A DNA stretch of 47,163 bases from NCBI GenBank assembly GCA_035939775.1, contig DASZFO010000264.1, positions 1 to 47,163 on the forward strand, in the 5' to 3' direction. The translations under genes were made by a program, and so were the position numbers. Below are positions 4,430-11,905 of the stretch, in pieces. The stretch is from Pirellulales bacterium (GTDB lineage: Bacteria; Planctomycetota; Planctomycetia; Pirellulales; DATAWG01). The first letter of the stretch is position 1. Every line of letters starts with the position of its first letter. Under the pieces are notes generated by a model. The model did no database searches. It had not been told where the DNA came from and worked only from the letters and a program-made list of their open reading frames with translations.

Positions 4430-4969
4430 GTGACGAACAGCAAGGCTCTAACTAGATTGCTCCACCGCTGGGCGTTCTCCGGCGTGATTTGGGCGATGGT
4501 GCCGCTGGCAGTTGTCAGTGGCATGCCGACGACGAGTTGCGGCTGCTTCAAATGCTGTTGCGGTGCAACGTGCTCCGTCGATCATTCTTCAGCGACTGAC
4601 TCGTGCCGGTCGAACGAAGCCGCACCGGCCGCCGAGAGACACAACTCATGCACGGAGATTGGTCGGAACGGCAACCGACCCTCGTGTTGCTGCGGTGGCG
4701 ACCACAACATTCGCGCACTCCCTCAGACCAACCGTGCGCCAACTGGCAAGGGATTCTCCGACGATCAGCATCGTTGCCAAATGGTGATCGCCGTCCGTCA
4801 CGCGGTGCAGCCGACCGTGACCAAGCCACACAATAATCGCGCGCCGGCGTTGAGCGCGCTGACAGTTGAATTCGCGCACCGCGGGTTTAGAGATTCTGAT
4901 CGACCGGAGAACGTCCACACCGGTCCGCCGGTCGATCTGATTGTGACGCTCGGGCATCTTCTCATTTGA
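4430..4969 (+). CDS. Small Cys-rich exported protein, candidate metal-binding
   Basis: A 179-residue protein that starts at GTG, with Shine-Dalgarno ggaagga 7 bases upstream. Residues 1-33 look like a signal peptide or membrane anchor (basic start, then WAFSGVIWAMVPLAVVSGM). It is followed by dense cysteines, CGCFKCCCGATC and later SCCCGGDH, and by several His. The first hydrophobic stretch ends just before the Cys cluster, which would place the cluster outside the cytoplasm. It lies 322 bases upstream of the CusB-like adaptor and divergent from the sialidase-fold gene. A role as a periplasmic copper or silver binder is plausible from the composition and neighbours. I do not recognise a named family. 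Confidence 0.7.
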   Translation: MTNSKALTRLLHRWAFSGVIWAMVPLAVVSGMPTTSCGCFKCCCGATCSVDHSSATDSCRSNEAAPAAERHNSCTEIGRNGNRPSCCCGGDHNIRALPQTNRAPTGKGFSDDQHRCQMVIAVRHAVQPTVTKPHNNRAPALSALTVEFAHRGFRDSDRPENVHTGPPVDLIVTLGHLLI

Positions 4970-5291
4970 TGCCGCTTCCGCGCGGCTTCAATCTTCCCGC
5001 CGCGCCCGCCGAACGGCGCCTTTCCGACCATTCCGCTCATTGCACGGACTGATCGCCCGTGAAGAGGTCGGATTGAATTTCAGACGGCCGTCGTCACAAG
5101 GCTCCATGCGCTGAGTTCAATACTGGGCAGGCAAGCAGTGTTGACGCCAACTTTCCTCTCGGAATGGTACCGAGCCGGATGCTCATTCGCGAAACTGACA
5201 TTCCCCCAAAGTGGCGGTACTCGTAACATTCGGACCCCAAAATCGCTTACGGAATCGTTCGGTCGAATCGACCAAGAAATACCGGTGCTTC
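4970..5291. other. 322-base gap upstream of the adaptor gene
   Basis: No convincing gene was found. Open frames cross the region but lack coding character, and the adaptor frame extends to 5211 without a good start. A weak TTGACG near 5141 could be a -35 element, but I see no good -10 partner. No strong hairpin was seen. Confidence 0.4.
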
Positions 5292-7463
5292 ATGGCTCAT
5301 CAAGATCCGATTTCCAACACTCCTCCCGAATCCACTCCGCCCTCTATCGTCGCGGACGTTTTCAAGCCCGATCATGCGGCGACCCCACCGATCACCGGCT
5401 GGAAGCGCGTGCGCTTTCTATTCAAGGTGATCGAGATCCGCATGCGGTTTATCCTGATCCTCGTCGTGACGTTTGTCTTGATCGGCAAGTGGGAAACGAT
5501 CAAGAACTTCTGGGAGAAATGGACCCGACCGGCGGCCTCCACTGCCGCGAAAGCGCAATCCGATACGGAATACTTCTGCCCGATGCACCCTTCCGTTGTG
5601 CGCGACGGACTGGAGCCCGACGGCTCGGTTCCAAAGTGCCCGATCTGCGGAATGCCCTTGTCGCTGCACAAGAAGGGAGCGCGCGCGGATTTGCCCGAGG
5701 GGGTCACCGCCCGCGTGCAGCTTTCGCCCGAGCGGATTCAGATGGCCGGGGTCGCCACGGCCGAGGTCGAATATCGCCCGTTGGTGAAGGAGATTCGCAC
5801 TTACGGCGTCGTCGATTACGACCAGTCGCGGCAGTCGCAAATCGTCAGCCGCACGGCCGGGTTCGTCGATAAGCTGTATGTCGATAAGACGTATGTCAGC
5901 GTCCGCCAAGGGGAGCCGCTGGCGCTGATCTACAGCCCGGATTTGCAGAGCACTGCCGACGACCTGGTGCTGGCGCTCAATCGCGGAGCGACCGATCTGG
6001 TCGAGAGCGGCAAGCAGCGGCTCAAGAACTTGGGGATCGCCGACAACGAGATCGACGAGGTCGTCGCCTCGCGCGAGCTGCTCGTTGCGTTGAAGCACGA
6101 CGACAAGGCGCAGGCCGATCAGGCCACGGAGAGTTTGCGAAAGCTCGGTATGTCGGATTCCGAAATCGACGATATCAAATCGACGCGACGCGCGCCAACC
6201 GGCCTCGTCATCCGCTCGCCGGTGAGCGGGCACGTCATCAACAAAGCAATCGTGCAGGGCGCCAAAGTCGATGCCGGCATGACGCTGTTCGACATCGCCG
6301 ATCTGACGCATGCCTGGATCGAGGCCGACGTGTTCGAGAACGACATTCCGCTCTTGCACGCCGGGCAGGAGGTCGAGGTAACGGTCGAAGGGCTGCCGAA
6401 CCAGGTGATTCACGGCCAGATTCTCCTCGTGCATCCGCACGTCGAGACGGCCAGCCGCACGAACCGCATCCGGATCGATTTGCCGAATCCCGACCACGAG
6501 CTGCGCCCGGGCATGTACGCCAATGTTACGGTGAAGGTACCGTTTCAAGAGATCGAGCCGTTCAAGAGCACGCTGGCCGCGGCTCAAGCGGGTCCGAAGG
6601 GGACCGACGACAAATCGCTGATCGAATTCCAGAAGACCTGCCCCGTCACCGGCAACAAGCTCGGCAGTATGGGGGCGCCCGTGAAGCGACAAGCGGGCGA
6701 TAAGATGGTGTTTCTCTGCTGCAAGAATTGCATCGAGAAGTTCGACGCCGCCAAGGATGAATATCTGGTCGCCCTCGCGCCGCCGCCGCAGGGCGTCGTG
6801 CTCACCGTGCCGGAGCGGGCCGTGATCGACACCGGATCGAAGAAGGTCGTTTACGTCGAGCGCGAGCCGGGCACGTTTGACGGCATCGAAGTGCAGTTGG
6901 GACCGGAGGCGGGCGGTTTCTTTCCGGTCGTGAAGGGGCTGCGGGCGGGCGACCGCGTTGCGGACCGAGGAGCGTTCTTGGTCGATGCCGATTCGAAGCT
7001 CAATCCGGCGGCCGCGGCAGCGTACATCGGGGCCAGCGGCGGGCCGTCGGCGGTCGCGCGCACCGCACCCCTCACCCCCGGCCCCTCTCCCGCAAGGAGA
7101 GAGGGGAGTGACGAAGCTGCTCCCGCCAAGAACGAGGGAAGCAGCGAATCGCCGACTCGAGGCAGTGCCGCGACTCAAACCGAACCGATGACGCTCACCA
7201 AACCGACGGCCGAGAACCTCAAGAACCTCGACAAGCTCACGCCAGCCGACCGCGCCGCGGCGCTGGCCCAACAGAACTGCCCGATCACGGATGCGGCCTT
7301 GGGCTCGATGGGAGTTCCGTTCAAAGTGGAATTGGTTCCCGGCACGACCGCGTTCCTCTGCTGTGACCAGTGCAAGGAAGAAGCCACCAAGGACCCGCGG
7401 AAGACGATCGAGAAACTGGCGCAGATGCAGCAAGCAATCAAGGAGGAAACCAAGAAACGGTAG
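5292..7463 (+). CDS. cusB: CusB-like periplasmic adaptor of an RND metal efflux pump, with extra Cys modules
   Basis: The 723-residue protein has one N-terminal membrane anchor (about residues 50-66) and then a heavy-metal-binding module with FCPMHPS (95-101) and CPICGM (116-121). A membrane-fusion core with a lipoyl/barrel and alpha-hairpin region follows. Two similar modules come after the core: CPVTGNKLGSMG with FLCCKNC (about 450-480) and CPITDAALGSMG with FLCCDQC (about 663-693), which resemble YHS-type metal-binding domains. The family links the inner-membrane pump to an outer-membrane channel and hands over Cu or Ag. Residues about 591-607 come from an inserted palindrome. The ATG giving MAHQD is chosen; an earlier ATG at 5211 would add 27 residues. 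The stop codon lies in a palindromic repeat. Confidence 0.9.
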   Translation: MAHQDPISNTPPESTPPSIVADVFKPDHAATPPITGWKRVRFLFKVIEIRMRFILILVVTFVLIGKWETIKNFWEKWTRPAASTAAKAQSDTEYFCPMHPSVVRDGLEPDGSVPKCPICGMPLSLHKKGARADLPEGVTARVQLSPERIQMAGVATAEVEYRPLVKEIRTYGVVDYDQSRQSQIVSRTAGFVDKLYVDKTYVSVRQGEPLALIYSPDLQSTADDLVLALNRGATDLVESGKQRLKNLGIADNEIDEVVASRELLVALKHDDKAQADQATESLRKLGMSDSEIDDIKSTRRAPTGLVIRSPVSGHVINKAIVQGAKVDAGMTLFDIADLTHAWIEADVFENDIPLLHAGQEVEVTVEGLPNQVIHGQILLVHPHVETASRTNRIRIDLPNPDHELRPGMYANVTVKVPFQEIEPFKSTLAAAQAGPKGTDDKSLIEFQKTCPVTGNKLGSMGAPVKRQAGDKMVFLCCKNCIEKFDAAKDEYLVALAPPPQGVVLTVPERAVIDTGSKKVVYVEREPGTFDGIEVQLGPEAGGFFPVVKGLRAGDRVADRGAFLVDADSKLNPAAAAAYIGASGGPSAVARTAPLTPGPSPARREGSDEAAPAKNEGSSESPTRGSAATQTEPMTLTKPTAENLKNLDKLTPADRAAALAQQNCPITDAALGSMGVPFKVELVPGTTAFLCCDQCKEEATKDPRKTIEKLAQMQQAIKEETKKR
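7072..7110. repeat. Palindromic repeat inside the CusB-like gene (family R2)
   Basis: CCCCTCTCC and GGAGAGAGGGG flank a five-base loop (7082-7105). The preceding ctcaccccc matches the same repeat inside the CusA-like gene at 10359-10455. It is read in frame as LTPGPSPARREGS, a proline-rich linker between the adaptor core and the last Cys module. Confidence 0.75.
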
Positions 7464-7545
7464 GGTGCGTCAAGTCCGCGCAGACGCACCGCACTTCGGT
7501 CGTTCACGGTGCGTCTGCGCGGAGGAACCGCTTGACACACCCTAC
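7461..7545. repeat. Long inverted repeat between cusB and cusA (family R3)
   Basis: The left arm has TAGGGTGCGTCAAG (7461-7474) and CGCGCAGACGCACCG; the right arm has CGGTGCGTCTGCGCGG and CTTGACACACCCTA (7531-7544). The arms are near-complementary over about 35 bases, with a small asymmetry. The first three bases are the stop codon of the CusB-like gene. It may also act as an mRNA-stability or attenuation hairpin before cusA. Confidence 0.8.
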
Positions 7546-7594
7546 GCAGATCGCCTTCCCCAATCCCTAGTCCCCGGCCCCCAGTCCCGATTCA

Positions 7595-10500
7595 GTGATA
7601 GAAAAAATCATCGAATTCTCGATCCGCAATCGGTTCCTCGTGATCATCGCGACGTTGGCGGTGGTCGTGTGGGGGATCCATTCGGTCGTCAATACGCCGA
7701 TCGACGCGATCCCCGACCTGTCGGAAAATCAGGTGATCGTATTCACCGACTGGATGGGGCGCAGCCCCCGCGAGATCGAAGACCAGGTGACCTATCCGCT
7801 CTCGGTCAATCTCCAGGGATTGGCGGGCGTGAAATCGGTGCGATCGTCGAGCGAATTCAACTTCTCGATGATCAACATCATCTTCGAGGACAACATCGAT
7901 TTCTATTTCGCCCGCGAGCGCGTTTCCGAGCGGCTGGCGCTGGCCAGCACATTTCTGCCGCAAGGCGTGACGCCGTATCTCGCCCCGGACGCCACGGCGC
8001 TCGGGCAAATCTTCTGGTACACGGTCGAAGGTGAAGGGCAAGACCTCGGGCGATTGCGGGCAATACAGGATTGGACTGTCCGCTATCAGCTCAATTCCGT
8101 TCCCGGCGTGGCGCAGGTCGCCTCGGTCGGCGGCTATCCGATCGAGTATCAGATCGACGTCGAGCCGAACAAGCTGCGAGCCTACGGCATTACGCTCGGC
8201 GATCTCTACGCGGCCGTGGCGCGCTCGAACTCGTCCGTCGGCGGCCGCGTGATTCATCAGGGCAACGCCGAATATCTGGTCCGCGGCGTCGGCTGGATCA
8301 AGTCGAAGCGCGATATCGAGCAGATCGTCGTCAAGGCCGACCCAGCCACCGGCACACCAATCACAGTCGGCAACTTGGCGACCGTCGGCCTGGGCACACA
8401 GTTCCGCCGCAGCGTGCTCGAAAAGAACGGCAATGAAGTGGTCGGCGGCGTGGTGATGATGCGGCACGGCGAAAACCCCCTCGACGTCACCCAGCGAATC
8501 AAGCAGAAGATCGTCGAATTGCAGCCCGGCTTGCCCGAGGGAGTGCGGATCGTGGCCTTCTACGACCGCACGCGGCTGATCCACGGAGCGATTCACACGC
8601 TCACCGAAGTGCTCACGCACGAGATGATCATCGCCTCGCTGGCCGTGCTGTTGATCTTGATGCACTTCCGCAGTGCGGTAGTGATCTGCCTCACTCTGCC
8701 GCTCTCGGTGCTGGTGTCGTTCATCTTGATGCGGCACTTCAACATCCCGTCGAACATCATGTCGCTGGCGGGAATCGCCATTTCGATCGGCATCCTGGTG
8801 GATCAGGCGATCGTGATGGTGGAGAATGCCACCCACCACCTCACGGCCCATTTCGGCGATCGCCGCGTGACCGGCGACATCCGCGAGCTGGTTATTCCGG
8901 CATGCCGCACGGTCGGCCGGCCGATTTTCTTTTCGGTGATGATTATCCTGATCTCGTTCATCCCGGTGTTCGCTCTTTCCGGGCAAGAGGGGAAAACGTT
9001 CCATCCCCTGGCGTTCACGAAGAGCTTCGCGATGATTGGCGTGGCGATCCTGTCGATCACGCTCGTGCCGGCGTTGATCCCGACGTTCATTCGCGGGCGG
9101 CTGCGGCGCGAGGAAGAGAACTGGCTGGTGCGCACGCTGATCGACATCTACAAACCGGTGCTCAATTGGGCGATGCCGCATCGCAATATCGTGCTCTGGC
9201 TGTTCGCCGTGCTGCTGCTCCTCGGCGCGGGCTTGTTTCCGCTCAACGCGCTGACGGGATTCTCCTGGCATGCTTCGTACATGTTTGTGTTCGCCGTCGT
9301 GACGATCGCGACGGTTTTCTTCATCGATGGCCGGATGTGGCAGCGATTGTCGTTCGCGAGTTTGGTCGTGCTGGGATTCATCGCGTCCGATTTCCGCCGG
9401 ATCGGCGAGCAATACATGCCGCCGCTCGACGAAGGCAGCATTCTCGATATGCCTGTCACGGTGCCGCGGGCGTCGGTCACCGAAGCGGCCGACGATCTCA
9501 AGGCCCGCGACGCCATGCTGCGGCAGTTTCCCGAAGTCGAGCAAGTGGTGGGAAAGGCGGGGCGTGCAGAGACGCCGACCGATCCGGCGCCGCTCGAGAT
9601 GGTCGAGACGGTCGTCAACCTCCGGCCCACTGATTTCTGGCCGAAACGATTGCTGCGTTACGAGGACGCAATGGCGCAGACGGGAGTTGTGCTGGCGGCG
9701 CTCGAGAGTCGCGGACTCGTCAAGGCGCCGGCCGACAGCGCGGCGCGGCAAAACATGATCAACGATGCCACGATGGCCGCGATGGGCCGCTTGGACGGGA
9801 CGTTGCGGAACTTCGTCCTGGCGAAATACACGGCATTCGAGCAAGGACTGTCGCCGCGGCTGACTCGCGAGTTGATTACCCAGCTTGCCGAAATCTGGCA
9901 GCGGTCCGGCCGGCTGGCAAAACCGCTCGACGAGGCCCGCATCGCGCAGCTCACTGACAAGCTCTACGCGAAGTTTGGCCCGATTCTGGCCACGGGCGCC
10001 GCGCAGGAGAATGTCAACGAATTGGTTCGCCAGGTCGCCGAAACGCTCGATCACAACAAGCTGGTCGATCTGCGCGATCCGAAATTGATGGACCTACCGC
10101 GCAACGACGTGCAGATAGCGCTCGCCGCGCTCGGAGAGCAACTCGGGATGGAGCCGCAAACGCTATTTACCTCGATGCTCGCGTTTATCCAAGACCGCCG
10201 CGAGCAAGCTTGGAGCGAGATGGTCGGCAAAATGAACTACGAAGTCTTCGACGAAGCGGTCGCGACTTACGATCAGGATTGCATCGAGGAACTGCGGAGC
10301 AGGCGTCGGAAGTCGGAGGTCGGAGGTCAGGGGTCGGCGGCCGGAGGTCGCTTCAACCTCCCTCTCCCTCTGGGAGAGGGCCGGGGTGAGGGTGCAGCGC
10401 CGAGCGACTCTGCCAACAATGCCCCTCACCCTAACCCTCTCCCAAAGGGAGAGGGAACCGCGAATCGCGAAGCCCCAGCCGACGCAATCGCGCTCCAAAC

Positions 10501-11905
10501 GCTTCGCGCCGATCTCGACAAAGATTTCGCCCGCGGCCTGCTCCTCTGGCGAAAGTCGAAGGACGACCTTGTCAAGGAAATGGACAGCACGATCCAGGTT
10601 CCCGGCTGGAGTAACATCTTCACCCAGCCGATCATCAACCGGATCGACATGCTCGCCACCGGCGTACGGACGATGATCGGCGTCAAGGTGTTTGGCAGCG
10701 ATTTAAACCAAATCCAGGCCGTCTCGGAGAACGTCGCCGAGGTGCTCCGAGCCGTGCCGGGCACCGTGGCCGTCGTGCCCGACCAGATTGTCGGCAAGGG
10801 ATACTTGGAAATCACGGTCGATCGCGAAAAGGCGGCCCGCTACGGCGTGAACGTCGGCGACGTGCAAGACGTGATCGAAGTGGCGCTCGGTGGCAAGCCG
10901 ATCACCGAAAAACTTGAAAACCGCGAGCGGTATCCGATCCGCATCCGATACGCTCGCGATGCACGGGCCGGACTCGAAGAGATCAAGAACCTTCTGGTCA
11001 CCGCCGCCGCCGGCGCGATGACGGGGGACGCCTCTTCGGCGATGAGCGGAATGGGCGGCGGACCGGCGAAAACGCCGGCTGTCGGATCAAGCCGCCCGCT
11101 TCAAATTCCGTTGGCAAGCGTTGCCGACGTGCGGATTGTCGAGGGTCCGTCAGAGATCAAGAGCGAAAACGGGATGCTCCGCTCCTATGTGCAAGTCACA
11201 GTGAACACGCCCGACCTCGTCGGCTACGTCGAGCAGGCCCAGCGGCTGGTGGATCAAAAGGTCAAGCTGCCGCAAGGGATGCACCTGGAATGGAGCGGGC
11301 AATTCGAGCACAAGCTGCGGGCCGACCGCACGATGCGAATCGTCCTGCCGCTGGTGCTGGTCCTGATCTTCATCATCCTCTACCTGACCTACCACGACCT
11401 CATGGACGCCGTGCTGATGATGATGGCCGTGCCCGAGGCGTTGGTCGGCGGGGTCTTCTTCCTTTGGCTGACCGGTCACAGCTATAGCGTGGCCGTGCAA
11501 GTCGGCTTCATCGCCTGTTTCGGCATGGCCACGGAGACGGGCATCATCATGCTCGTCTACCTGCGCGAGTCGCTCGAACGGCGGGGCGGAATAAAAAACA
11601 TCAAATCGCTCGAAGAGTTAAAGGAAGCGGTGGTCGAGGGGGCGGTTCATCGCCTGCGGCCGAAGCTGCTCACCGAAGGGGTCGCGATCGTGGCCCTGGC
11701 GCCGATGCTCTGGACGAGCGGCGTCGGGCATGAAGTGATCTCGGCGATGGCGGCGCCAGTGTTGGGCGGTCTGTTAGTCTCGGATGAGGTGGTGGACCTG
11801 TTCCTGCCGGTTCGTTTCTACTGGGTCCGCCGGTATCGGTGGCTTAAGTTGCACGGCCTGACGGAGGAGCAGGCAGCCGCCGGAAACGACAAGGTGACTG
11901 CGTGA
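7595..11905 (+). CDS. cusA: CusA-like RND metal efflux pump with a large extra domain
   Basis: The 1436-residue protein is far longer than the roughly 1040 residues usual for CusA/CzcA. It starts at GTG (MIEKIIEFSIRNRFLVI when initiated). It contains the expected helices and porter domains, for example the membrane motif SIGILVDQAIVMVEN (about 395-410). That motif resembles Cu+/Ag+ pumps and lacks the DFG of divalent-metal CzcA. The excess lies mainly between about residues 680 and 1000: a predominantly helical, charged segment plus a repeat-derived linker (about 919-955). After it the normal sequence resumes with PGWSNIFTQPIINRIDMLATG. Two extra hydrophobic segments are also seen near 540-590. 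It is expected to be energised by the proton gradient and to work with the adaptor gene upstream. No outer-membrane partner is present. Confidence 0.93.
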   Translation: MIEKIIEFSIRNRFLVIIATLAVVVWGIHSVVNTPIDAIPDLSENQVIVFTDWMGRSPREIEDQVTYPLSVNLQGLAGVKSVRSSSEFNFSMINIIFEDNIDFYFARERVSERLALASTFLPQGVTPYLAPDATALGQIFWYTVEGEGQDLGRLRAIQDWTVRYQLNSVPGVAQVASVGGYPIEYQIDVEPNKLRAYGITLGDLYAAVARSNSSVGGRVIHQGNAEYLVRGVGWIKSKRDIEQIVVKADPATGTPITVGNLATVGLGTQFRRSVLEKNGNEVVGGVVMMRHGENPLDVTQRIKQKIVELQPGLPEGVRIVAFYDRTRLIHGAIHTLTEVLTHEMIIASLAVLLILMHFRSAVVICLTLPLSVLVSFILMRHFNIPSNIMSLAGIAISIGILVDQAIVMVENATHHLTAHFGDRRVTGDIRELVIPACRTVGRPIFFSVMIILISFIPVFALSGQEGKTFHPLAFTKSFAMIGVAILSITLVPALIPTFIRGRLRREEENWLVRTLIDIYKPVLNWAMPHRNIVLWLFAVLLLLGAGLFPLNALTGFSWHASYMFVFAVVTIATVFFIDGRMWQRLSFASLVVLGFIASDFRRIGEQYMPPLDEGSILDMPVTVPRASVTEAADDLKARDAMLRQFPEVEQVVGKAGRAETPTDPAPLEMVETVVNLRPTDFWPKRLLRYEDAMAQTGVVLAALESRGLVKAPADSAARQNMINDATMAAMGRLDGTLRNFVLAKYTAFEQGLSPRLTRELITQLAEIWQRSGRLAKPLDEARIAQLTDKLYAKFGPILATGAAQENVNELVRQVAETLDHNKLVDLRDPKLMDLPRNDVQIALAALGEQLGMEPQTLFTSMLAFIQDRREQAWSEMVGKMNYEVFDEAVATYDQDCIEELRSRRRKSEVGGQGSAAGGRFNLPLPLGEGRGEGAAPSDSANNAPHPNPLPKGEGTANREAPADAIALQTLRADLDKDFARGLLLWRKSKDDLVKEMDSTIQVPGWSNIFTQPIINRIDMLATGVRTMIGVKVFGSDLNQIQAVSENVAEVLRAVPGTVAVVPDQIVGKGYLEITVDREKAARYGVNVGDVQDVIEVALGGKPITEKLENRERYPIRIRYARDARAGLEEIKNLLVTAAAGAMTGDASSAMSGMGGGPAKTPAVGSSRPLQIPLASVADVRIVEGPSEIKSENGMLRSYVQVTVNTPDLVGYVEQAQRLVDQKVKLPQGMHLEWSGQFEHKLRADRTMRIVLPLVLVLIFIILYLTYHDLMDAVLMMMAVPEALVGGVFFLWLTGHSYSVAVQVGFIACFGMATETGIIMLVYLRESLERRGGIKNIKSLEELKEAVVEGAVHRLRPKLLTEGVAIVALAPMLWTSGVGHEVISAMAAPVLGGLLVSDEVVDLFLPVRFYWVRRYRWLKLHGLTEEQAAAGNDKVTA
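10359..10455. repeat. Pair of inverted repeats inside the CusA-like gene (family R2)
   Basis: Bases 10359-10391 hold CCCTCTCCCTCTGGGAGAGG followed by GGGTGAGGG, and 10422-10455 hold the mirror-image set with CCCTCACCC and CCCTCTCCCAAAGGGAGAGG. Each half is itself a hairpin, and the two halves pair with each other. The stretch translates without a stop as LPLPLGEGRGEG, a spacer, then APHPNPLPKGEG. Just upstream (10306-10350) is a gtcggaggtcgg-type repeat of a kind that also occurs near 29097. Confidence 0.8.

Follow-up and report, generated by a model that had tools for sequence, protein, structure and literature searches.

A block of 305 residues within the porter region of a CusA-type pump is a genuine conserved accessory domain, found in one subfamily of the CusA-type copper/silver pumps. 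The pump gene lies in the window, by which we mean the whole 47,163-nucleotide stretch of Pirellulales DNA that was analysed. A sequence-only reading of this DNA had noticed an extra block of about 320 residues at 9618-10590. The block is real, but that span took in a few flanking core residues at either side; the insert proper, with 305 residues standing where CusA has 4, occupies 9644-10558. The features discussed here are collected in Table 1.

Table 1. Pump gene, insert and adjoining adaptor gene: positions in the window
Feature	Pump residues	Position	Strand	Basis or remark
CusB-type adaptor, 750 aa, likely pump partner		5211..7463	+	YFCPMH motif; two CPxT...LGSMG...CCxxC (TRASH-like) segments
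CusA-type HME-RND pump, bears the insert	1436 aa	7595..11905	+	GTG start; TIGR00914 1001 bits
TM7 region, longer than in CusA	535-604	9197..9406	+	Hydrophobic segments, one extra transmembrane hairpin by eye
Insert in PC1 (305 aa), strand b3 to helix a2 junction	684-988	9644..10558	+	CusA alignment, AlphaFold2
Base helix	689-705	9659..9709	+	AlphaFold2
Long helix A (56 aa)	715-770	9737..9904	+	AlphaFold2, two separate runs
Tip region, short helices 780-800, 804-820, 838-849	771-856	9905..10162	+	AlphaFold2
Long helix B (53 aa), antiparallel return	857-909 (911 in the other run)	10163..10321	+	AlphaFold2
Linker, disordered	910-961	10322..10477	+	pLDDT <50 for 912-958; repeat-derived
7-bp array encoding part of the linker		10305-10350		With the palindrome, source of the linker
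Palindromic dispersed repeat, ~100 bp	922-956	10358-10460		In frame within the pump
Return helix, leads into conserved base motif (L/F)LW	962-981	10478..10537	+	AlphaFold2, conservation
Gly/Ser/Met loop in DC	1134-1168	10994..11098	+	Alignment to CusA and relatives

The core of the protein is that of a CusA/CzcA pump. In an NCBIfam profile search it scored 1001.4 bits against TIGR00914 (CusA/CzcA), passing the curated cut-off of 701.45, and in Pfam it reached 721.6 bits against ACR_tran; whole-fragment fold searches returned CusA and other RND pumps. By alignment to solved CusA, counted by hand, Met619, Met669 and Met1019 pair with CusA Met573, Met623 and Met672, which we take to be the copper/silver methionine triad. 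The three columns hold Met in 59, 59 and 58 of the 59 insert rows (the third column has one gap) and in all 24 pumps that lack the insert. Since the three aligned methionines are kept, a substrate of the Cu(I)/Ag(I) type is likely for the window pump, as far as sequence can indicate. Escherichia coli CusA (PDB 3k07, 3ne5, 3t51) shares the pump core, the three metal-site methionines and an adjoining CusB-type adaptor gene; it differs in having 4 residues where 305 stand here, and in its shorter TM7 region and shorter DC loop. These last two regions make up the excess of the window pump over CusA beyond the insert.

Both regions also vary among relatives. By eye, the TM7 region of the window pump holds three hydrophobic segments, compared to one in CusA. 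The length of this segment ranges from 18 to 159 aa in 54 insert-bearing pumps (18 aa in 12 of them) and from 18 to 84 aa in 24 others; some pumps may thus have two or four additional transmembrane helices. The DC loop is of Gly/Ser/Ala type, with 6% Met across the insert-bearing group, and measures at least 24 aa in 45 of 54 insert-bearing pumps and 8 to 9 aa in all 24 others; it may serve to bind metal at the exit funnel.

When the pump is aligned to solved CusA chains, residue 683 falls on chain position 644 and residue 989 on 649. Strand b3 (VVNLRP) and helix a2 (DLVKEMD) flank the insert. This places it in PC1, in the second periplasmic loop, as expected from the sequence-only reading, which had assigned it to the periplasmic half of the pump. 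It has at least 100 aa at the W-P-[KR] site and matches the insert profile, of which the window pump is itself a row. PC1, which lines the substrate entrance, is a continuous fold in AcrB and CusA by the published account (PMC8277102). In the window pump this continuity is broken by the 305-aa insert, a structural trait that lies outside the TIGR00914 definition. Because the defining profile is passed, we keep the pump within CusA/CzcA; the interrupted PC1 makes it a variant.

Two AlphaFold2 runs, one on residues 600-1235 (23 sequences, mean pLDDT 76.6) and one on the insert alone (15 sequences, mean pLDDT 82.5), gave two long helices, of 56 and 53 residues, together with a helical cap. With the insert alone, 172 of 305 residues had a pLDDT of at least 90, and thus the block is not the disordered extension that the sequence-only reading had named as one possible outcome. 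Short strand pieces were predicted at both ends of the insert, which is otherwise helical save for loops and the linker. Given the turn between them, helices A and B are read as antiparallel, and the resulting hairpin would be about 8 nm long (56 residues at 1.5 Å). Consistent with the earlier description of the block as helical and charged apart from a repeat-derived linker, D, E, K and R make up 27-28% of the insert, compared to 21% of the whole pump, and only the linker falls below a pLDDT of 50. The tip cap is absent in three short members, L020, L022 and L227, with inserts of 144 aa in L020 and L227 and 154 aa in L022; helices A and B are kept in all three.

The nearest relative of the window pump (L127; 89% core identity) has a 274-residue insert at the equivalent place, and therefore the insert is neither a chance open stretch nor the product of a frameshift. 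A disordered or chance block can also be rejected given the confident helices in both AlphaFold2 runs and a dN/dS well below 1. For the hairpin, dN/dS against L127 was 0.13 (NG86, with dS saturated at 2.5); the four large core blocks gave 0.06 to 0.14 and the TM7 stretch 0.27. The hairpins of the two pumps are 59% identical over 219 aligned residues, and the large core blocks are 80-91% identical. Across 50 long members, the base motifs and the proximal half of helix A were the most conserved parts (1.94 bits for the latter); the tip scored 1.31, the return helix 1.22 and the linker 0.50. Residue W985, in the hydrophobic base motif, is Trp in 42 of the 50 rows, and N723, D734, R738, N881, E883 and D886 are conserved polar residues of the helices.

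The repeat-derived linker is best treated apart from the rest. The palindromic element within it (single-strand DNA fold z-score of -8.2) belongs to linker-region DNA that has 78 matching places in the same genome, counting the two strands of the palindrome apart and including some places that match the 7-bp array only. The element also lies within another RND-type ORF of this genome (L223, C245:56714-56821), as well as in other long open frames. Among 83 aligned pumps, a motif of the PLPLGEG/PLPKGEG type was found in the insert of the window pump, L011 and L022 only; the inserts of the latter two hold stretches of 30 and 35 bases that match the element. The repeat as source of the domain was therefore rejected, the palindrome covering just residues 922-956 and the motif occurring in 3 of 83 pumps. 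Because the element occupies a linker stretch that is variable among relatives (linker occupancy of 0.35), it entered a variable region of the insert and is not the domain itself. In five other pumps (L019, L021, L133, L138 and L197), the linker stretch carries His clusters (HH or HHH), which from their sequence are possible metal ligands.

The insert is not peculiar to the window genome, an idea rejected by hairpin and profile searches that found it in many related genomes. A search with the hairpin sequence of the window pump alone gave matches in 17 of 57 related genomes; a 27-row insert profile matched 22 of 392 genomes of the phylum and 5 of 39 in the phylum of Candidatus Wallbacteria, one of the five being the search centre, picked for having the insert. 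The counts from the single sequence are low, since L197 carries a 286-aa insert in a genome that this search missed. No insert was seen in 198 genomes drawn around a Flavobacteriia genome, in a search run without a positive control, and tblastn of the hairpin against 72,556 plasmids gave no match. All 56 insert profile matches among 5,240 ORFs from 86 stretches were pumps.

We also searched from outside the insert. A conserved 84-residue piece of PC1 matched 71 places in the same 57 genomes, and the 19 of these with at least 67% identity to the window are exactly the 19 insert places of the hairpin search. Among 20 regions fetched from the other 52 places, 17 had 4-32 residues at the site, L197 had the insert, L198 had a 160-aa insert without a match to the profile, and L206 had no full pump. 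When the whole pump was the query, 13 of 20 aligned pumps carried the insert, although some of the search patterns also fall in it. Since the insert itself was the query that retrieved most insert-bearing rows, losses inside the group may be undercounted.

In 78 aligned pumps the length at this site is bimodal, at either 4-32 or 102-363 aa. Trees were built from columns outside the insert, the TM7 region and the DC loop; they are quick trees, made without bootstrap. Partial pumps of under 1000 aa or under 600 bits were dropped, with L020 (992 aa) put back for the larger tree; L012, from the same stretch as L139, was left out of trees and neighbour counts, and L165, with a long branch, was left out of the larger tree. 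In the 77-row tree, 52 of 53 insert rows lie on one side of a branch with an SH-aLRT of 100; after addition of the Wallbacteria-phylum pumps (81 rows), 56 of 57 fall in one branch. L198 is the sole exception both times. Insert-bearing pumps of the main branch come from Planctomycetota and the phylum of Candidatus Wallbacteria. Inside this branch all 52 rows of the 77-row tree, mostly insert-fetched, have at least 100 aa at the site; L165 has an insert of only 102 aa and does not match the profile. L198 (pump at 7319-11110, minus strand) carries its 160 aa at the shared PC1 site outside the main group, and since this insert has no profile match, the site seems, from sequence, to have been used twice.

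Searches of the insert against Pfam, NCBIfam and PDB sequences gave nothing or chance-level matches only. Against solved structures, the insert alone had a best Foldseek E of 0.58 (0 of 246 matches at E ≤0.001) and a best VIA Z of 5.6, in the range that the tool calls common; VIA re-examines Foldseek's own list. No description of the domain was found in the open-licence literature searched. Thus, the alternative raised by the sequence-only reading, a known common extension of the family, holds in part: the insert is common in a subfamily but is not described in the libraries and literature searched. Annotation passes over it because neither Pfam nor NCBIfam has a model for it.

There is a parallel in mycobacteria. 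MmpL5 carries a coiled-coil insertion of 196 aa in its second periplasmic domain, which is reported to be required for efflux and has been modelled as forming a tube of about 13 nm (PMC12501195). MmpL5 and MmpL4 (HAE-2 RND pumps) are alike in having a long antiparallel helical hairpin in the second periplasmic domain, but they belong to another RND family, with siderophore or drug substrates, in mycobacteria without TolC (PMC12501195). The window pump core is not HAE-2/MMPL (PF03176 at 19.4 bits, below the cut-off of 20.5), and MmpL5 is the closest parallel in idea but not a fellow family member. By this parallel, a hairpin in the second periplasmic loop seems to have been acquired in two RND families. 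Adaptors of the CusB/AcrA type also contribute a periplasmic helical hairpin to tripartite pumps (PMC4446572), but here the hairpin sits on the pump and not on the adaptor.

The window adaptor matches the CusB barrel-sandwich model HlyD_D23 strongly and the CusB hairpin model HlyD_D4 weakly, below the Pfam cut-off. Of 53 insert-bearing pumps, 45 have an adaptor-like ORF no more than 2.5 kb away, and all 24 pumps that lack the insert have one beside them. The CCxxC motif occurs in 34 of the 45 adaptor-like ORFs beside insert-bearing pumps and in 4 of the 24 beside others, counting small separate ORFs, and in none of 5 Wallbacteria-phylum adaptors. This association may reflect ancestry alone; as the insert changes just twice on the tree, we see no power there to tell the two apart.

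The sequence-only reading had imagined that the block could replace part of a missing outer-membrane partner, and here it fails. Using a home-made OEP profile from six ORFs of the window genome, and counting loci with at least 5.5 kb of left and at least 3 kb of right flank, we found an OEP-like gene within 5.5 kb, on either strand, at 17 of 27 insert-bearing loci (L198 among the 27) and 7 of 15 others. In the Wallbacteria-phylum loci, OEP, adaptor and pump follow in this order on one strand in 5 of 5 cases, with OEP scores of 30 to 132 bits. No OEP was found within the window, and none of the 19 OEP matches in the window genome is on the window contig. Of six OEPs of this genome that were compared with the OEP near the L127 pump, the one on contig C209 is the best match (54% identity over 488 residues); this contig, of 7,830 bases, has no pump match, and no adaptor was recognised among its ORFs by eye. 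The OEP partner of the window pump is therefore likely to be encoded on another contig, C209 being the candidate by sequence. With TolC-like genes near many insert-bearing pumps and an OEP in its own genome, replacement of the outer-membrane partner was rejected.

AcrB PC1 residues K632, D633, W634, P638, G639 and E640 are among those reported to lie within 5 Å of the bottom of a truncated porter domain (PMC7355581). From the AcrB sequence, we take these residues to belong to the b3-a2 loop, presumably equivalent to the loop that holds the insert. Because of this proximity, the hairpin would start on the membrane side, and the insert seems to leave PC1 there and not at the top, so far as AcrB numbering and the presumed loop equivalence allow.

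We favor, at a probability of about 0.42, an external arm that would dock and brace the adaptor, direct contact between the two being plausible. If AcrB numbering is a guide, the base of the hairpin would be at the outer edge of PC1, on the side of the porter domain that faces the membrane, and the arm would stand outside the pump beside the PC1/PC2 entrance. We imagine that it could brace the adaptor ring and assist in seating the adaptor; any extra metal-binding modules that the adaptor has could be held close to the entrance, and an ordinary TolC-like protein would still perform the outer-membrane step. An adaptor does not need the arm, given that an adaptor-like ORF accompanies every pump without it. 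One fixed interface is not suggested either, since the insert changes faster than the core (59% as against 80-91% identity to L127). A role tied to CCxxC modules is opposed by the lack of this motif in 11 of the 45 adaptor-like ORFs and all 5 Wallbacteria-phylum adaptors, and by its presence in 4 of 24 beside pumps without the insert. A further-reaching proposal, that a pump-borne coiled-coil arm which arose independently of MmpL5 engages the adaptor, or gathers metal-binding modules at the entrance, we regard as somewhat unlikely; such engagement from the pump side was not found described in the accessible portions of the tripartite-pump literature searched. A long helical arm on PC1 offers a natural test of pump-adaptor recognition in tripartite systems.

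One can envision instead that the hairpin leaves PC1 on its membrane side and extends laterally or upwards until it meets the lipid surface, peptidoglycan or some other part of the envelope, positioning the pump without involving the adaptor. An insertion site on the membrane side, as the AcrB residues imply (PMC7355581), would suit such an anchor or spacer, as would the conserved hydrophobic base motif with its Trp in 42 of 50 rows and the longer hydrophobic TM7 region of most insert-bearing members. However, TM7 gain and insert are not strictly coupled: 12 of 54 insert rows have the shortest TM7 segment, and TM7 length changes 8 times on the 77-row tree, compared to 2 changes for the insert. 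We think this arrangement unlikely. Quite unlikely, in our view, is that the insert is an elaboration of this lineage that does little by itself, gained once in a PC1 loop that tolerates insertions and kept mainly because it folds well. That the L198 insert lies outside the group at the equivalent site, that L165 has just 102 aa without a profile match inside it, that three members lack the tip cap and that repeat-like motifs sit in three inserts are all consistent with a tolerant loop. The presence of at least 100 aa in every main-branch row argues the other way, with the proviso that these rows are mostly insert-fetched and losses may be missed, as do the polar helix residues that are kept and a dN/dS well below 1, at saturated dS.

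A conduit of the MmpL5 kind, in which the hairpins of a trimer assemble as a coiled-coil tube to carry substrate upwards and take the place of part of the adaptor or outer-membrane channel, appears very improbable. Its appeal lies in the 196-aa MmpL5 insertion in the second periplasmic domain, modelled as a tube (PMC12501195). However, many insert-bearing pumps have adaptor and OEP genes nearby, and the insert seems, by the AcrB residues, to leave PC1 at the membrane side (PMC7355581). In addition, conservation is lower in the tip than in the base-proximal half of helix A (1.31 versus 1.94 bits), the short members lack the tip, and a hairpin of about 8 nm falls short of the roughly 13 nm given for the MmpL5 tube (PMC12501195). 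The external docking and bracing arm remains the reading that we prefer.

Two observations concern the genes next to the pump. Upstream of the adaptor, an ORF at 4430-4969 (plus strand; 179 aa), without a Pfam or NCBIfam match, has a Cys-rich segment. Within the adaptor, and unmatched by the palindrome of the pump, the stretch TAPLTPGPSPARREG at residues 618-632 (window 7062-7106) looks repeat-derived.
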